Assembly (NCBI GenBank): GCA_028712475.1
Contig: JAQTQB010000008.1
Span: forward strand, 1 to 64,000
Direction of reading: 5' to 3'
Origin: Verrucomicrobiales bacterium
GTDB lineage: Bacteria; Verrucomicrobiota; Verrucomicrobiia; Limisphaerales; UBA11358
DNA length: 64,000 nucleotides
Below, piece by piece: positions 27,130 through 55,286 of the stretch (the stretch's first letter is position 1; each line of letters opens with the position of its first letter). A model generated the notes under the pieces. That model saw only the letters and a program-made list of their open reading frames with translations. It was not told the DNA's origin and searched no databases. Made by a program: the position numbers and the translations under genes.

Positions 27130-27326
27130 ATTTTTAGTATTCAGGATTCGTTTGTAGCATTTTGCAATCAACTAAAATGTGTGCAACCGGGTTCCTTGAC
27201 TGGCGGAGTTTGCCGGCGGAGCAAGGTTGTGTTACACAGGGCGCAAAGGTCATTCGTCGTCCCCCTCTCCCCCTCATCCCTGTCACCGGCATCACAATCC
27301 GCCGGTTGTCAGACATGCGACTATCT

Positions 27327-27340
27327 ATTATGAACATAAT
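27327..27340. promoter_or_regulatory. ATTATG-AA-CATAAT palindrome
   Basis: Perfect six-base arms around AA, about 200 bases before the GH5-like gene on the minus strand. Related to the dyad inside the iclR promoter; a candidate operator for the IclR protein. Confidence 0.5.
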
Positions 27341-27438
27341 GCCGGGCGAATGAGCAACAATAGTTAATATATTTTGCATGTGTCAACAAAAAATGAAACC
27401 CGTTCAAAATCGTGTTCACATATTATGTGCAAAAAATG

Positions 27439-27467
27439 TTGACAATTATGTTCGTAATCCATAAACA
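27439..27467 (+). promoter_or_regulatory. Probable iclR promoter with embedded operator dyad
   Basis: TTGACA at 27439-27444 and TAAACA at 27462-27467 are separated by 17 bases. The spacer holds ATTATG-TT-CGTAAT (27445-27458), the same dyad type as at 27327. A repressor bound there would block polymerase, fitting autoregulation, which is common in the IclR family. Confidence 0.5.
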
Positions 27468-27507: not shown

Positions 27508-28275
27508 ATGCAGCGATCCTCCACCGTTGACAAGAGCCTGAACATTCTGGAAGCCACCCGCGATGCTGGGGAAAAAGGGCGGGGCGTGCGCGAACTTTCG
27601 CGCTTGCTGAGCATCAACCCGGCCACCGTGCATAATCTGGCTTGGACCCTGTCCTACAGGGGTTACTTGAGCCAGAATCCAAAGACGCGGCGGTTTGTGC
27701 TCGGACCGGCGTGCCAGCAACTAGCCAGCAGCCAATCCCCCTGGCGGGACTTGGCGGAAAAGGCCGGGCCGCTGGTGCGGCAATGCCAGCGGGAGTTGGA
27801 TGAATCCATCATGCTGGCGGCGCTGCATGGGAACGAGGTGGTCTCGCTGGTTTACATCCCTTCCACCCAAGCACTCCGGGTGGATGAACCGGAGGTGATG
27901 GGGGATCGGGCCTACGGAACGGCCGTTGGGAAGATGTTGTTAAGTTCCTTGTCGGAACCGGCGCTACAGGCGTATTTGCGGGCGCATCCACCACAGGCAT
28001 TCATGCCGCGGACGTTGGCCACGCCGGAGGCTATTCGCAAGGAATTGGACAGAATCCGAAAACGCGGCTACGCTGAAACCCGGGATGAATTGTGCCTAGG
28101 GGTCAGCGCCATGGCGGTGCTGGTGAAGCCGCAGGCGCACGCTGGGATTGTGGCCGGCTTGGGCGCAAGCGCCCCGACGATTCGGATGGACGCCCGGCTC
28201 AAACAGACCACCCTGACCGTCCTGCGCCGCTTTGCGGGACTTATTGATCGTGCGGACGAAAGCCAGGCTAAATGA
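27508..28275 (+). CDS. IclR-family transcriptional regulator
   Basis: A 255-residue protein. Residues about 5-60 are the winged helix (STVDKSLNILEATRD, RELSRLLSINPATVHNLAWTL, RGYLSQNPKTRRFVLGP). Residues about 75-245 are the GAF-like effector domain with GTAVGKMLLSSLSEPAL, IRKRGYAETRDELCLGVSAMAV and a C-terminal helix. IclR proteins often control sugar-acid and aromatic catabolism and bind a pathway intermediate. The promoter holds a dyad in its spacer. Neighbours (isomerase and hexuronate-type transporter downstream, GH5-like gene divergent) suggest a pectin-sugar effector, which is inference. Confidence 0.88.
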   Translation: MQRSSTVDKSLNILEATRDAGEKGRGVRELSRLLSINPATVHNLAWTLSYRGYLSQNPKTRRFVLGPACQQLASSQSPWRDLAEKAGPLVRQCQRELDESIMLAALHGNEVVSLVYIPSTQALRVDEPEVMGDRAYGTAVGKMLLSSLSEPALQAYLRAHPPQAFMPRTLATPEAIRKELDRIRKRGYAETRDELCLGVSAMAVLVKPQAHAGIVAGLGASAPTIRMDARLKQTTLTVLRRFAGLIDRADESQAK

Positions 28276-28951
28276 GCCTTCGCGTCTGAGGCCGGCAACA
28301 GAGTTGTCGCACTACTATTCTATAGTTACCCGCTCTTGCTGCCCAGGTTCTGCCGCAGACACAGAACCATGCCGGCGGTTTTTCCCCTCCCCCGGTTGTC
28401 CCACTTTTCCGCAGGCAGGTCGCAGCCGTGGGTCGCTGCGTTGCAGGGGCGGTGTCCGGAAAACTGCCGCTCATTCCGTTTATTAAATACAAACATAAAA
28501 TACACGCGAATGATACATTCCTGTTGACATACCAGCAAACAAAGGAATAATTGAGTGTAATCCGCATGCATTAGCGTTTATAGAATACAATCAATGTTTG
28601 CTGTCTGCGAATGACGCGCTTGATAAAAAGTAAAACGCCAAAACCAAAATGCCAGTCATGAAACTCGACTTTAAACCTGCATCATTAATTTTTAAGAGTG
28701 GGGGACGGGATGTTGACTGGTTTGAGCGCGCACAAAGTGCAAACACAGGGTGGCGGCGCTTTGGGGCTGGCGCCGCCATCTGTAGTTTCAGTTAATAATA
28801 TAATCAGCGGGTGACAATCGCGTGCCACCGATTGCGGTGAGGTGTTACCAGATACCGGAACAATAAATGAGCCGGATTACCCGGCTAAAATGGAGCAGGC
28901 TGGAAATCCCATTTTAAGCGGCGAATATTATAGAAAGCGGTTCCAATTTTT
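28276..28951. other. Intergenic region, no confident gene
   Basis: About 675 bases. A 48-codon open frame (28649-28795, beginning MPVMKLDFKPASL) has no ribosome site and no recognisable similarity. Its end overlaps an eight-pair GC hairpin (GGCGGCGC at 28752-28759 against GCGCCGCC at 28770-28777) that lacks a T tract. Short AT-rich segments near 28486-28510 and 28800-28930 could hold promoters for the isomerase gene. Confidence 0.4.
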
Positions 28952-30490
28952 ATGCAATTAATACCATCGAAGAAGAAAGGCCGCATCGGCAACAACGGTG
29001 CGCTTCCGGCAGGAGAGCGCCAAATTGTGGAAATAGTCCGGCAACAACCCTTGCGGGCCCGCGTGGGGCTTGTCGGCGTGGGGCACCATGTTTACTGGCC
29101 GCAATTTGATGGGCTGTTTGTCGAAATGCACCGCAAGCAGACGGTCGTGGCCCGGCGGCTGGAGCAGCACGGCGTGGTCGTGAGTGATTTCGGCATGGTG
29201 GACAGCGCAGACGCGGCCTACGCCGCCGTTCCCAAAATGAAGGCCGCCGATTTGGACGTGCTGTTTGTGGACATGGTGACCTACGCGACGTCCTCCACGT
29301 TCGGGGTGCTGGCGCGGGAATTGAAGGGCGTGCCGATTGTGCTGGTGGCGTTGCAGCCGCTGAAAGCCATGGATTATCCAAATGGCACCACCTATATGCA
29401 GTTGTGCAACGACGATTTTTGTTCCGTGCCGGAATTCACCGGCGTGGCCATCCGGCTGGGCCGCCGCCCGCCGCCGGTGATTTTGGGTCACGAACAGGAT
29501 GATCCGCGGGCGGAGGCGGAACTGGCGCGCTGGTGCGGCATCGCCAAAGCGCTGCATGACTTGCGGCGCGGCCGGATTGGGCTGATGGGGCATGTGCTGG
29601 AATCCATGCTGGACATGCACTGCGATCCGACGGCCATCACGGCGGCGTTCGGCTGCCATGTGCCGCTGCTGGAACCGCACGACCTCCTGCGGTATTTCGA
29701 GCAGGCGGACGCCGCCGCCATCGAGGGGAAGAAGAAAATCATCCTGGATTTCTTTGCCACCCCCCAGCCGAAGTCTGACCCGCTGACCCAGAAACTGACG
29801 GCGCGGGACCTGGAGACGGCGGCGCGGGGCGCGGTGGCGCTGGACGGGCTGATCGCGGAAAAGAACCTGACCGGGCTGGCGTATTACTACGAAGGCAGCC
29901 CCGGCAGCCAGATTCGCACGGTGATGACGAATTTGATCGTGGGCAACTCGCTGCTCACGGGCGCGGGCTTTCCCATGTGCGGCGAGTATGACCTCAAGAC
30001 GTGCGTGGCGATGCTGATCATGGACCGGCTCGGCATCGGCGGCAGTTTTGCGGAGTTTCACCCGGTGGATTTCGAGCGGGACACGGTGCTGGTGGGCCAC
30101 GACGGCCCGCACCACATCAACATCGCCGCCGGGCAGCCGGTGCTGCGCAGCCTCAAGAAATACCACGGCAAACCGGGGTTTGGGGCGTCGGTGGAATTCC
30201 AGATCAAGGATGGTCCGCTCACCATGCTCTCCATCGGCCAGACGGCGGCGGGCAAATTCAAGTTTGTCGTGGCCGAGGGCCTCTCGGAGCGGCACCCCAT
30301 ACCGCCGACAGGAAACACCAACACGCACGTTCGTTTTGGCAAGGACGTGCGCGACTTCTTGTGCCGCTGGGTGGCCGAGGGGCCGACGCACCATTTTGCG
30401 CTCGGCATCGGCCACCACGCCGATACCATCCGGCTGCTCGCCGAATGCCTCGACATCGAGTGCGTCATCGTCAAGCCAAACCCCGCGTGA
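28952..30490 (+). CDS. L-fucose/L-arabinose isomerase-like protein
   Basis: A 512-residue cytoplasmic protein of the fucose/arabinose isomerase superfamily. The N-terminal Rossmann-like part contains RVGLVGVGHHVYWPQFDG and LDVLFVDMVTYATSSTFG. The middle holds GRIGLMGHVLESMLDMHCDPTAI, and the C-terminal part YYYEGSPGSQIRTVMTNLIVGNSLLTGAGFPMCGEYDLKT and HHINIAAGQPVL, including acidic and His residues that would bind the metal. Such enzymes convert aldoses (fucose, arabinose, rhamnose-like) to ketoses. It stands just upstream of an ExuT-like transporter and a truncated FucP-like symporter, supporting a deoxy- or pentose-sugar catabolic unit. The true substrate is unknown. Confidence 0.8.
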   Translation: MQLIPSKKKGRIGNNGALPAGERQIVEIVRQQPLRARVGLVGVGHHVYWPQFDGLFVEMHRKQTVVARRLEQHGVVVSDFGMVDSADAAYAAVPKMKAADLDVLFVDMVTYATSSTFGVLARELKGVPIVLVALQPLKAMDYPNGTTYMQLCNDDFCSVPEFTGVAIRLGRRPPPVILGHEQDDPRAEAELARWCGIAKALHDLRRGRIGLMGHVLESMLDMHCDPTAITAAFGCHVPLLEPHDLLRYFEQADAAAIEGKKKIILDFFATPQPKSDPLTQKLTARDLETAARGAVALDGLIAEKNLTGLAYYYEGSPGSQIRTVMTNLIVGNSLLTGAGFPMCGEYDLKTCVAMLIMDRLGIGGSFAEFHPVDFERDTVLVGHDGPHHINIAAGQPVLRSLKKYHGKPGFGASVEFQIKDGPLTMLSIGQTAAGKFKFVVAEGLSERHPIPPTGNTNTHVRFGKDVRDFLCRWVAEGPTHHFALGIGHHADTIRLLAECLDIECVIVKPNPA

Positions 30491-30498
30491 GGACGTGG

Positions 30499-30530
30499 AT
30501 GGTATCGGCATGAATTCATGCCGATACCAT
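30499..30530. repeat. 32-bp perfect palindrome overlapping the transporter start
   Basis: Two perfect 16-base arms with no spacer (ATGGTATCGGCATGAA then its reverse complement), centred on GAATTC. The right arm ends in the first two bases of the ATG at 30529. There is no T tract, so it is not a typical terminator. As RNA it would bury the start region in a long hairpin; as DNA it could be a dimer-binding site. Confidence 0.85.
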
Positions 30531-31824
30531 GACGGTAATAACCGGCTTGAAAAATGAATCCATCTTGAACCACCCGAATCCAGCCGCCGGCCCGCCAATT
30601 CCGCGCATCGCCTGGGTGCTGTGTGGATTTCTCTTTGTGGCCACGGCTTTGAGCTTTCTCGACCGGCAGGTGTTGTCGGTGCTGGCGCCTTCGTTGATGA
30701 AGGATTTGGGCATGAACAACACCGATTACTCGCACGTTGTATCCACCTTTGTCTTTGCTTATACGATCATGTTTGCGGCCGGTGGCTGGCTGGTGGACCG
30801 GTTGGGCACGGTGCGCGGGTTGGCGATTTCAGTGGCCGTGTGGTCGCTGGCCAGCGCCGGTCACGCGCTGGCGGCGGGCGTGCTGGGTTTGGGCGTGGCG
30901 CGGTTCATCCTGGGTCTGGGCGAAGGCGCATGTTTTCCGGCGGCAATCAAGGGTGCGACGGAATGGTTTCCGCCGGAGAAACGAGGCGCGGCAATGGGCA
31001 TTGCGATTGGCGGTTCCGCTTTTGGGGCGGTGATTGCACCGCCGTTGACAGCGTGGGTGGCTGGCAGTTTCGGCTGGCGCGGCGCGTTTTTTGTGACCGG
31101 CTTGATTGGTCTGACGTGGGTGGCCGGATGGATTGCGGCGGGACGCTTTGCGCCCAAGCCCGTCAGATCTGCGGCGTCCGCAAAAACAGACACCAAGGCA
31201 GTGTGGCGCGAGGTGTTCCGCCAGCCTGCCATATGGCGCATTCTCGCGGCGCGGTTCCTGTTTGACCCGGTTCTCTATTTTTACCTGTTCTGGATTCCGC
31301 AGTATCTTTCGCACGATCGCGGCTTCTCGCTGGATGAGATCGGGAGGTATTATTGGGTTCCTTTTCTGGCGCTGGGCTTGAGCAATATCGTCAGCGGCTA
31401 TCTCGGCGACGGTTTGCTGCGGCTGGGCTGGTCCGAGCGGCGGGTGCGGCGGGTGTTGCTGGCGGTGGCGGCGTTGCTCACACCGGTTTCCTGCGGCGTG
31501 ATTTTTGCCCCGAACGCCGGCTGGGCGATTGCGATGATGGCCATGCTGATGGTCGCGCATGGTCTTTGGATATGTAATTACGTCCTGCTCATCGGTGACC
31601 ATTTTCCATCCAGGGTTGCGGCTACCGTGATGGGGCTGACGGGCACGGTGGGTGGCAGCGCCGCAATGCTGGCCAACCTGATCACCGGTCCGGTGGTGGA
31701 TCGTCATGGTTTCACGCCGATTTTTATTTGCACGGCGCTGCTTTATCCCTTGGCGCTCGTGGTGCTGCTGACGATTCCGCGCCCGGCAATTGCGAAGGAG
31801 TCTTCCGCCGATCTCGCCGGTTGA
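30529..31824 (+). CDS. MFS transporter, hexuronate/organic-anion (ExuT/ACS) type
   Basis: A 431-residue, twelve-helix MFS permease of the anion:cation symporter group, which includes ExuT (galacturonate/glucuronate). Family features: SFLDRQVLSVLAPSLMKDLGM in helix 1, GGWLVDRLGTVRG in the 2-3 loop, GLGEGACFPAAIKGATEWFPPEKRG in helices 4-5, and FLFDPVLYFYLFWIPQYLS in helix 7. With the GH28 enzyme it would import galacturonate. The chosen ATG falls at the end of the 32-bp palindrome; a TTG at 30547 is the next in-frame alternative. It lies 38 bases after the isomerase stop, so both are probably one operon. Confidence 0.87.
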   Translation: MTVITGLKNESILNHPNPAAGPPIPRIAWVLCGFLFVATALSFLDRQVLSVLAPSLMKDLGMNNTDYSHVVSTFVFAYTIMFAAGGWLVDRLGTVRGLAISVAVWSLASAGHALAAGVLGLGVARFILGLGEGACFPAAIKGATEWFPPEKRGAAMGIAIGGSAFGAVIAPPLTAWVAGSFGWRGAFFVTGLIGLTWVAGWIAAGRFAPKPVRSAASAKTDTKAVWREVFRQPAIWRILAARFLFDPVLYFYLFWIPQYLSHDRGFSLDEIGRYYWVPFLALGLSNIVSGYLGDGLLRLGWSERRVRRVLLAVAALLTPVSCGVIFAPNAGWAIAMMAMLMVAHGLWICNYVLLIGDHFPSRVAATVMGLTGTVGGSAAMLANLITGPVVDRHGFTPIFICTALLYPLALVVLLTIPRPAIAKESSADLAG

Positions 31825-31854
31825 TTTACGCAGCCACTTTAATAAAATTTTATA

Positions 31855-32061
31855 GCAATCATCTCTATCAACACTTCAGACACCGGCGGCAACGCCAACG
31901 GAACGAACTATCGCGGCTCGTTCTGGATCATGACCTCGCTCTTTTTTCTATGGGGGTTCATGACCGTGTTCAACGACATCCTGATCCCGCGCTTCAAGGA
32001 GGCGTTCACGTTGAACTATTTTCAGGCGATGCTTGTGCAGTTCGCCTTCTTTGGCGCCTAG
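31855..32061 (+). pseudogene. N-terminal fragment of a FucP-like sugar/H+ symporter
   Basis: About 69 codons encode SFWIMTSLFFLWGFMTVFND, then ILIPRFKEAFTLNYFQAM and LVQFAFFGA, the first two helices of an L-fucose/glucose symporter of the FucP family. The frame then runs into a stop (GGCGCCTAG) where the family continues FGAYF. The GGCGCCTA bases are also the end of an inverted HsdM fragment, so the gene was cut by recombination at a shared eight-base sequence. No start codon is evident. The substrate would have fitted the neighbouring isomerase. Confidence 0.8.
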
Positions 32062-32208
32062 TCGTGCCATACTGGGAACGATATCCGGACCATGTAGCGC
32101 CCTCGTTCGCAAGAACCGTTCTTGCTTTGCATCATACAGACGATCCTTGAGCCACTCGAAGGCCGCCAATAGAAATCCACCTGTGCCACTGGCTGGATCA
32201 ACTAATTG
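32053..32208 (-). pseudogene. Internal fragment of type I restriction methylase (HsdM)
   Basis: Read on the minus strand, about 52 codons give LVDPASGTGGFLLAAFEWL, a stretch with RTRALHGPDIVPSMARL, then GA at the junction. This is AdoMet-binding motif I (DPASGTGGF) and the following helix/strand of N6-adenine methylases of type I systems (usual LHG.DI.P..ARL). No other part of the gene (NPPF motif, HsdS, HsdR) is present. The fragment is bounded by the FucP remnant on one side and the integrase remnant on the other. Confidence 0.75.
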
Positions 32209-40955: not shown

Positions 40956-41027
40956 GTAGCAGCCGACGTGAGTCGGCTCAAACTTTTCACCCGCCGGAAT
41001 AATGAGCGGACTGACGTCCGCTGCTAC
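40956..41027. repeat. REP-like palindromic element, copy 1
   Basis: Starts GTAGCAGCCGACGTGAG and ends with its near reverse complement (GACGTCCGCTGCTAC), 72 bases in all, with inner pairs GTCGGCTCA. The same left end recurs at 55210, so this is a dispersed miniature element. Confidence 0.7.
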
Positions 41028-41241
41028 GGGATTTACGTCATGGAGCAGGAGAAATCGTCCGCCGTCCCCTTGAAAATCCGAACCGGGATTTGCCGGGCAC
41101 TGATCGAACCGCCTTTTGTCCCTTTGTCCCATTTTCATTCAAGCGACGGGACAAGGTGTGTCGCAGTTTCGGTTTGGCCGGAAATAACAGCCCGGTTTGA
41201 AGGCAGATGATCCTTGGTTCGTCTTTGAAACCCATTGGGAA

Positions 41242-41493
41242 ATGATTTCCCTTCCAAGGAAAATCACTTTTAAGGTTAAACAAATGATTTCCCAAGGTTG
41301 GTTGAACTTTTTCCTTCCAAGGAAAATGTTTTTCTTAATTAAGAAAACGGTTTTCCTTACCTTCCCAAAGATTTTCCTTCCAAGGGAAATGTTTTCCCTC
41401 CCAAGGAAAATGATTTCCCTTACCTTCCCAAACATTTTCCTTCCAAGGGAAAAGGTTTTCTTAGTCAAGGAAATGATTTCCCTTCCAAGGAAA
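41242..41493. repeat. Array of twelve 21-bp imperfect palindromic units
   Basis: Twelve adjoining units of exactly 21 bases, without spacers. Typical core: TTTTCCTT, then CC, then AAGGAAAA, with ATG between units; some units are TTAATTAA or CCTTACCTTCC variants. Both strands are open through the array: the plus strand reads as seven-residue repeats (MISLPRK, FLPREMF, SLPRKMI, SLTFPNI), the minus strand as LGRKIFG-like repeats. Because 21 bases are two helical turns, every unit faces the same side of the DNA. A frame from a TTG at 41197 to 41574 (125 codons) runs through it; whether it is translated is unknown. Confidence 0.85.
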
Positions 41494-41576
41494 ATGAAGG
41501 AAAAACCTTTGTTTTTGGTGAAAACAGCCCGACGCCATCCACCATGTCTATGCAAGGCAAGTTGCCGCCGGTAAAA

Positions 41577-55209: not shown

Positions 55210-55286
55210 GTAGCAGCCGACGTGAGGAGGCTCAAATTCTATCAGGAACAACAAAATGTTTTCAATCTTCTCGCGTCGGCTGCTAC
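55210..55286. repeat. REP-like palindromic element, copy 2
   Basis: Seventy-seven bases beginning GTAGCAGCCGACG and ending CGTCGGCTGCTAC, a perfect 13-base terminal inverted repeat. It is related to the element at 40956. It fills the gap between the convergent hemW and histidine-kinase genes and could act as a terminator for both. Confidence 0.75.

Follow-up and report, generated by a model that had tools for sequence, protein, structure and literature searches.

Template switching in replication is known from Escherichia coli, where it copies short stretches as their reverse complement and makes perfect those inverted repeats that were imperfect before (PMC7202029), and it is also known as a maker of perfect hairpins in RNA genes (PMC8794818). 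In E. coli, upstream genes with stabilised messages can have stable hairpins that lack a U-tract at their 3′ ends (PMC5927463), REP elements carry a conserved tetranucleotide, most often GTAG, before their palindrome (PMC8266576), and perfect inverted repeats with arms of at least 10 are widespread across bacteria (PMC13155455).

We analysed a stretch of 64,000 nucleotides (the window) from the 3.4-Mb genome of a Verrucomicrobiales bacterium, assembled in 29 contigs, in which a perfect palindrome lies in the junction of two genes. With the quasipalindrome-associated template-switch mutations (PMC7202029; PMC8794818) this palindrome shares a nearby reverse-complement copy and arms that are more perfect than their presumed source, whereas here the product alone is seen, in one assembly, and two steps are required. 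Like the protective hairpins of the malE-malF type (PMC5927463), it is stable, has no U-tract and is situated between co-directional genes; unlike them, it is not conserved, and its RNA form is a prediction. It is a short perfect palindrome in a gene junction, as REP elements are (PMC8266576), but it occurs as a single copy, has GGACGTGG before it in place of a GTAG head and is unrelated to the REP-like family of its own genome. With the operators of IclR-family regulators it has in common its dyad symmetry and the proximity of an iclR gene, but its sequence is unrelated to the TGTTC-N9-GAACA pairs that we inferred for this locus and its relatives.

The palindrome and its setting

The palindrome, ATGGTATCGGCATGAATTCATGCCGATACCAT, occupies positions 30499-30530 between a sugar-isomerase gene and a transporter gene, both on the + strand (Table 1). 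Its arms, ATGGTATCGGCATGAA and TTCATGCCGATACCAT, are 16 nt long and match without mismatch or spacer; GGACGTGG precedes it and GACGGTAATA follows. The earlier note on this DNA had described an uninterrupted perfect 32-bp palindrome with 16-nt arms, and this is confirmed in the sequence and beyond chance, the expectation for such arms being about 64000 x 4^-16 = 1.5e-5 per window (an estimate for uniform bases). Within 464 kb of its own genome (the window and 20 further 20-kb stretches) no other spacer-free palindrome is as long, the runners-up having arms of 12 (24 bp), 11 and 10. In 664 kb around 80 related isomerase loci there is one spacer-free palindrome with an arm of at least 11 (arm 15, locus L132). 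The palindrome is real and rare, yet has a parallel elsewhere.

The observation that it lacks a terminator tail was borne out as well, no T-tract being present 3′ of it, and an intrinsic terminator was rejected, since the stem has no U-tract, GACGGTAATA follows it and it is absent from the terminator listing. Strong instability of palindromes in E. coli concerns lengths of roughly 150 bp and above. The accessible portion of PMC7999016 gives no instability limit that bears on 32 bp.

Table 1. Coordinates of the features discussed, numbered from the first letter of the window
Feature	Position	Strand	Remark
IclR-family regulator gene	27508..28275	+	
IclR-operator-like site, upstream member of pair	28477..28495	.	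Inferred motif, score 16.2
Promoter-like TTGACA-16-AATAAT between both operator-like sites	28524..28551	+	Consensus match only
IclR-operator-like site, downstream member of pair, 98 bp from the first	28575..28593	.	Inferred motif, score 11.2
Isomerase gene	28952..30490	+	Arabinose/fucose isomerase C-terminal domain matches
Probable donor segment CACGCCGATACCATCC, codons H-A-D-T-I, inside isomerase gene	30416..30431	+	Reverse complement of 30497-30512, 1 mismatch in 16
Left arm plus two outer bases, inverted copy of donor segment	30497..30512	+	
Perfect palindrome, 32 bp	30499..30530	.	Arms 30499-30514 and 30515-30530
Right arm	30517..30530	+	Direct copy of 30416-30429, 13/14
MFS transporter gene, read from ATG 30529	30529..31824	+	
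Putative alternative transporter start, TTG	30565..30567	+	Distance to CG motif equals that of the ATG in G002, G275 and G080

A third copy in the isomerase gene end

A third near-identical copy of the arm sequence, absent from the earlier note, is found upstream of the palindrome at 30416-30431, and its inverted match to 30497-30512 extends over 15 of 16 positions across a gap of 65 nt. At a single position the donor differs from both arms, which carry the identical base there and agree with each other at 16 of 16 positions; since both arms have the same base where the donor differs, one of them is probably a copy of the other. The donor codons are part of a GHHADTI motif, variants of which are present in isomerase orthologs, and because the gene copy encodes a variant of this shared motif the donor side is likely to be the source and the older copy.

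The 16-mer of donor and left arm has only one match outside this place in the whole 3.4-Mb genome (at most 1 mismatch). Among 18 strong hairpins in the 464 kb (perfect arms of at least 11, loop of at most 14), one has a third copy of its arm within 200 nt with at most 1 mismatch, namely this palindrome, and the other two longest inverted repeats of the related loci, in L132 and L162, have no third copy within 400 nt. Local inverted copies of 16-mers are common in this genome, with 39 places counted in the 464 kb and 0 in a single base-shuffled control; judged by eye, 7 of these places are members of the REP-like family and about 9 look to be of low complexity. From the 39 places, the chance that an unrelated local inverted repeat overlaps a given 32-bp stretch is estimated at about 1%. 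In an isomerase table of 95 rows, the window included, just two rows (the window and L102) have an inverted 12-nt copy of the gene end in the 150 nt that follow it; five rows of this table duplicate others, and in five (L117, L122, L124, L140 and L146) the automatic finding of stop codons is visibly off. A nearby reverse-complement copy and homogenised arms that are closer to each other than to their source, both marks of template switching, are thus found at this locus.

Distribution among relatives

Genome-wide patterns were run with the 28-bp core of the palindrome, not all 32 bases. Allowing up to 3 mismatches in its 24 fixed bases, the core occupies a single place in its own genome and has no match in the remaining 48 genomes of the genus, nor has it one there when searched as exact arms with a loop of 0-8 (in the set of 49 genomes, 28 reach 90% completeness or more and have contamination of 5% or less). 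The named genome collection (contigs of at least 3,000 bases), which may omit records very near the window, holds no exact copy of the core. The core has no match in viral contigs, phages or plasmids, and the transporter has no relative in viral contigs.

We scanned the junctions of 90 non-duplicate isomerase orthologs, the window included, over a span that begins 60 nt upstream of the stop codon and ends 150 nt downstream of it. The palindrome is not present at the other isomerase junctions examined, and the window alone among the 90 has a longest junction inverted repeat that is spacer-free with arms of at least 10. Inverted repeats with arms of at least 10, spacers allowed, occur at 5/90 junctions versus 0/90 control stretches inside the same genes, so that gene ends attract inverted repeats in general. 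At L162:5428-5469, in the tree neighbour of the window's isomerase (support 0.66), a perfect 19-bp inverted repeat with a 4-nt loop spans the stop codon of the isomerase ortholog; it is unrelated in sequence to the window's palindrome and has neither a T-tract nor a third copy nearby.

The order of isomerase followed by this type of transporter recurs only in L145 and L159 among 80 loci, a count limited by loci that break off shortly past the isomerase and blind to transporters of dissimilar sequence (G490 is apparently the same contig as L145). In these two, stop and start codon share bases (ATGA) or stand back to back (TAGATG), with neither an insert nor a palindrome, and since the genes touch there, the palindrome-bearing spacer looks like an addition in the lineage of the window, but the transporters of L145 and L159 are just 64% and 50% identical to the window's. 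A search for closer relatives by means of the transporter returned 1 of 319 other genomes of the order and 2 of 386 other genomes of the phylum sample (E <= 1e-118). In G002, G275, G080 and G024 an IclR gene diverges from a transporter-then-isomerase pair, and in G163 this order stands with no IclR match within the stretch examined; given that order, the same junction is impossible in any of them. Just 3′ of the window's MFS gene, at 31870-32061, is the remnant of a second transporter frame, stopped after some 60 codons, which presumably begins like a FucP-type permease.

The window's isomerase is 73-75% identical to its best matches (Cerasicoccus, Opitutales and other Verrucomicrobiota records) and 69% and 67% identical to orthologs of its own genus, and in a FastTree tree it falls into a seven-member clade that also contains Cerasicoccus and an Opitutales genome (local support 0.98). 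As it is closer to Opitutales-type sequences than to its congeners, the gene was probably acquired or replaced, and the grouping together with the swapped gene order relative to the transporter points to a probable horizontal replacement; congeners are therefore poor controls for the palindrome junction. This limits the absence from close relatives, which the earlier note had named as telling against a function: the palindrome is indeed found neither in the 48 genus genomes nor at the isomerase junctions examined, but the check is weak, because the window's isomerase branches with Opitutales-type sequences rather than with congeners and no really close relative is among them. The earlier view that such a palindrome is rarely kept without reason is nevertheless weakened, since a nearby template for the arms exists and the palindrome was absent from relatives as far as the comparison was run. 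The palindrome is lineage-specific and not a clearly conserved control switch.

Repeats of other kinds are present in the same genome. A GTAG-headed REP-like family, GTAGCAGCCGACGTGAGGAGGCTC, occupies 129 places (at most 3 mismatches) versus 0 in a reversed control, its copies often stand in head-to-head pairs, and copies in the window are seen at 55210-55286 and 40956-40979. At 41235-41496, inverted repeats that are imperfect and nested cluster together, their units resembling ATTTTCCTTCCAAGGGAAAA.

IclR-operator-like sites upstream of the isomerase gene

Two sites of the TGTTC-N9-GAACA type, 97-100 bp apart, are situated between regulator and transporter in each of four relatives, and the IclR motif matrix was inferred from these eight sites; all sites named here are putative and sequence-based. 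In the window the matrix scores 11.2-25.2 at 110, 27318, 27413, 27449, 28477 and 28575, the maxima of 20 base-shuffled windows being 8.3-16.7. The scores at 28477 and 28575 are individually within reach of the shuffled maxima, and it is their position and spacing that argue for this pair. A narrow literature search found no published IclR operator pairs at 98 bp.

The earlier note had suggested that the palindrome, as DNA, would suit a dimeric repressor. As operator of the adjacent IclR regulator this is not supported: the motif from the eight sites scores 0 in the palindrome region (30480-30560), the operator-like sites lie elsewhere, and the candidate was rejected. With the pair upstream of the isomerase and a score of 0 at the palindrome, the visible control signals lie upstream of the isomerase gene, and the isomerase and transporter genes are probably controlled by this operator-like pair.

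A second pair with the same distance of 98 bp was noticed at 12-30 and 110-128, its score of 25.2 at 110 exceeding all 20 shuffled maxima. It precedes a transporter-like ORF (854-2257), which we take to resemble sugar porters, and may share the same regulon. Further IclR-operator-like sites are at 27318-27336, 27413-27431 and 27449-27467.

The transporter start and the predicted RNA hairpin

The downstream gene had been labelled ExuT-like; that it encodes an MFS permease stands, but the best named subfamily, TIGR00893, scores below its cut-off. Its start bears on the further claim that the palindrome runs into the start codon, for the AT of ATG 30529 is indeed part of the palindrome, but this codon is doubtful as a start. 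A conserved CG motif could be located in 9 of the 19 rows, the window and 8 relatives, with starts read from sequence. In the window the in-frame starts before this motif are ATG 30529 at 31 residues, TTG 30547 at 25, TTG 30565 at 19 and a GTG at 2. In G002, G275 and G080 the sole ATG before the motif is exactly 19 residues upstream, G024 has a GTG at 19 and ATG at 17 and 12 residues, L158 and L165 have an ATG at 10 residues, G163 and L134 offer only TTG or GTG, and none of the 8 relatives has an ATG at 31 residues. The transporter may thus start at TTG 30565 and not at ATG 30529.

In the transcript the palindrome is predicted to form a hairpin of 14 pairs with a 4-nt loop (-23.3 kcal/mol alone), and the fold of 30485-30560 is predicted at -32.1 kcal/mol (z -6.0 versus shuffles). 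Rfam 15 gave 0 covariance-model matches up to E = 1 in 28200-32000. Of the suggestion that the hairpin hides the start region, the stable hairpin is retained as a prediction, but the hiding depends on ATG 30529, which homology disfavours.

The donor segment allows one further arrangement, an attenuator-like switch in which the donor codons (segment 1) and the left and right arms (segments 2 and 3) would form the exclusive pairings 1:2 and 2:3; to this we attach a very small probability. Cotranscriptional folding is predicted to give 1:2 once segment 2 is made, unless a ribosome covers segment 1, and to replace 1:2 by 2:3 as segment 3 is completed, so that ribosome traffic over the last isomerase codons could time hairpin formation before the transporter. 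At equilibrium with segment 1 free, 2:3 is predicted to beat 1:2 by 12.4 kcal/mol (-70.3 versus -57.9), and it also forms in the prediction with the isomerase stretch masked. As 2:3 is favoured by this amount, also when masked, the switch could only be kinetic, and an equilibrium RNA switch was rejected on these energies.

Origin of the palindrome and rival explanations

The palindrome is best accounted for by a mutational origin, as a by-product of replication template switching (probability about 0.6), in which the product is observed and the events are inferred. For a short time the replication machinery would have taken the growing strand (or its partner) as template, and a first switch would have placed an inverted copy of the isomerase gene end into the gene junction; a second fold-back around the central AATT would then have copied the arm into its own mirror image, perfecting the palindrome. 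Copying of one arm from the other in this second step would account for the arms being closer to each other than to the donor. The sole argument for the left arm as the earlier one is a pair of extra matching bases, a coincidence of 1 in 16, and no microhomology beyond the copied bases is evident by eye at the left switch point. The origin needs two events, or one event plus repair, and since the comparison turned up no close relative that retains the ancestral junction, it is the product that is seen, not the event. Also weighing against it, local inverted repeats are common in this genome, and perfect ones with arms of at least 10 are widespread across bacteria (PMC13155455). A mutational origin is compatible with a function acquired later, and the predicted hairpin between the two cistrons may protect the isomerase message or lower transporter output, although there is no sign that selection acts on it.

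The main rival, which we regard as unlikely but well ahead of the others, is an intercistronic RNA hairpin kept by selection, which would block 3′ exonucleases and keep the isomerase message abundant, or would lower translation of the transporter. The predicted stem is stable, has no U-tract and is flanked by co-directional genes, as in the E. coli precedent of stabilised upstream genes (PMC5927463), and the excess of longer inverted repeats at isomerase junctions (arms of at least 10 in 5/90 versus 0/90 controls) points the same way; the protective form of this explanation assumes cleavage in the transporter part, as in malE-malF-type operons. Against it, the hairpin is unconserved at every related junction examined, and the same-order relatives L145 and L159 have overlapping or abutting genes. 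Were the stem instead to sequester ATG 30529, transporter translation would await ribosomes finishing the isomerase. The stem does end on the AT of that codon, and a modelled ribosome at the isomerase stop, covering to 30502, leaves ten of the 14 pairs, but TTG 30565, 34 nt past the stem, better fits the start of three relatives and the palindrome is not conserved, and we judge masking of this kind improbable.

Equally improbable is an operator function at the DNA level, with a dimeric transcription factor regulating an internal promoter of the transporter; the perfect dyad symmetry and the position just upstream of the transporter gene speak for it. The sequence does not match the motif inferred for the adjacent IclR regulator, the core occurs once in the genome, and sigma-70-like matches on the + strand of 28200-32100 (this promoter type only being sought) are found only at 28524 and 31821, with none close to 30500. 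Least probable of all is membership of a dispersed palindromic family, be it REP/BIME or a small mobile element: although the genome holds its GTAG-headed family in 129 places, the core remains single-copy even at 3 mismatches, differs from that family in sequence, has no GTAG before it and matches nothing in viral contigs, phages or plasmids. A dispersed element was rejected because of the single copy and the lack of a plasmid or phage match. The original observation of the palindrome is sound, its reading as an operator is not supported, and a likely source of its sequence has been found.

Significance

A regulatory-looking palindrome that has a nearby template and a mutational explanation is a warning against calling each perfect palindrome an operator. 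If the mutational origin is true, template switching would have placed a hairpin at once in a gene junction, as raw material for post-transcriptional control.
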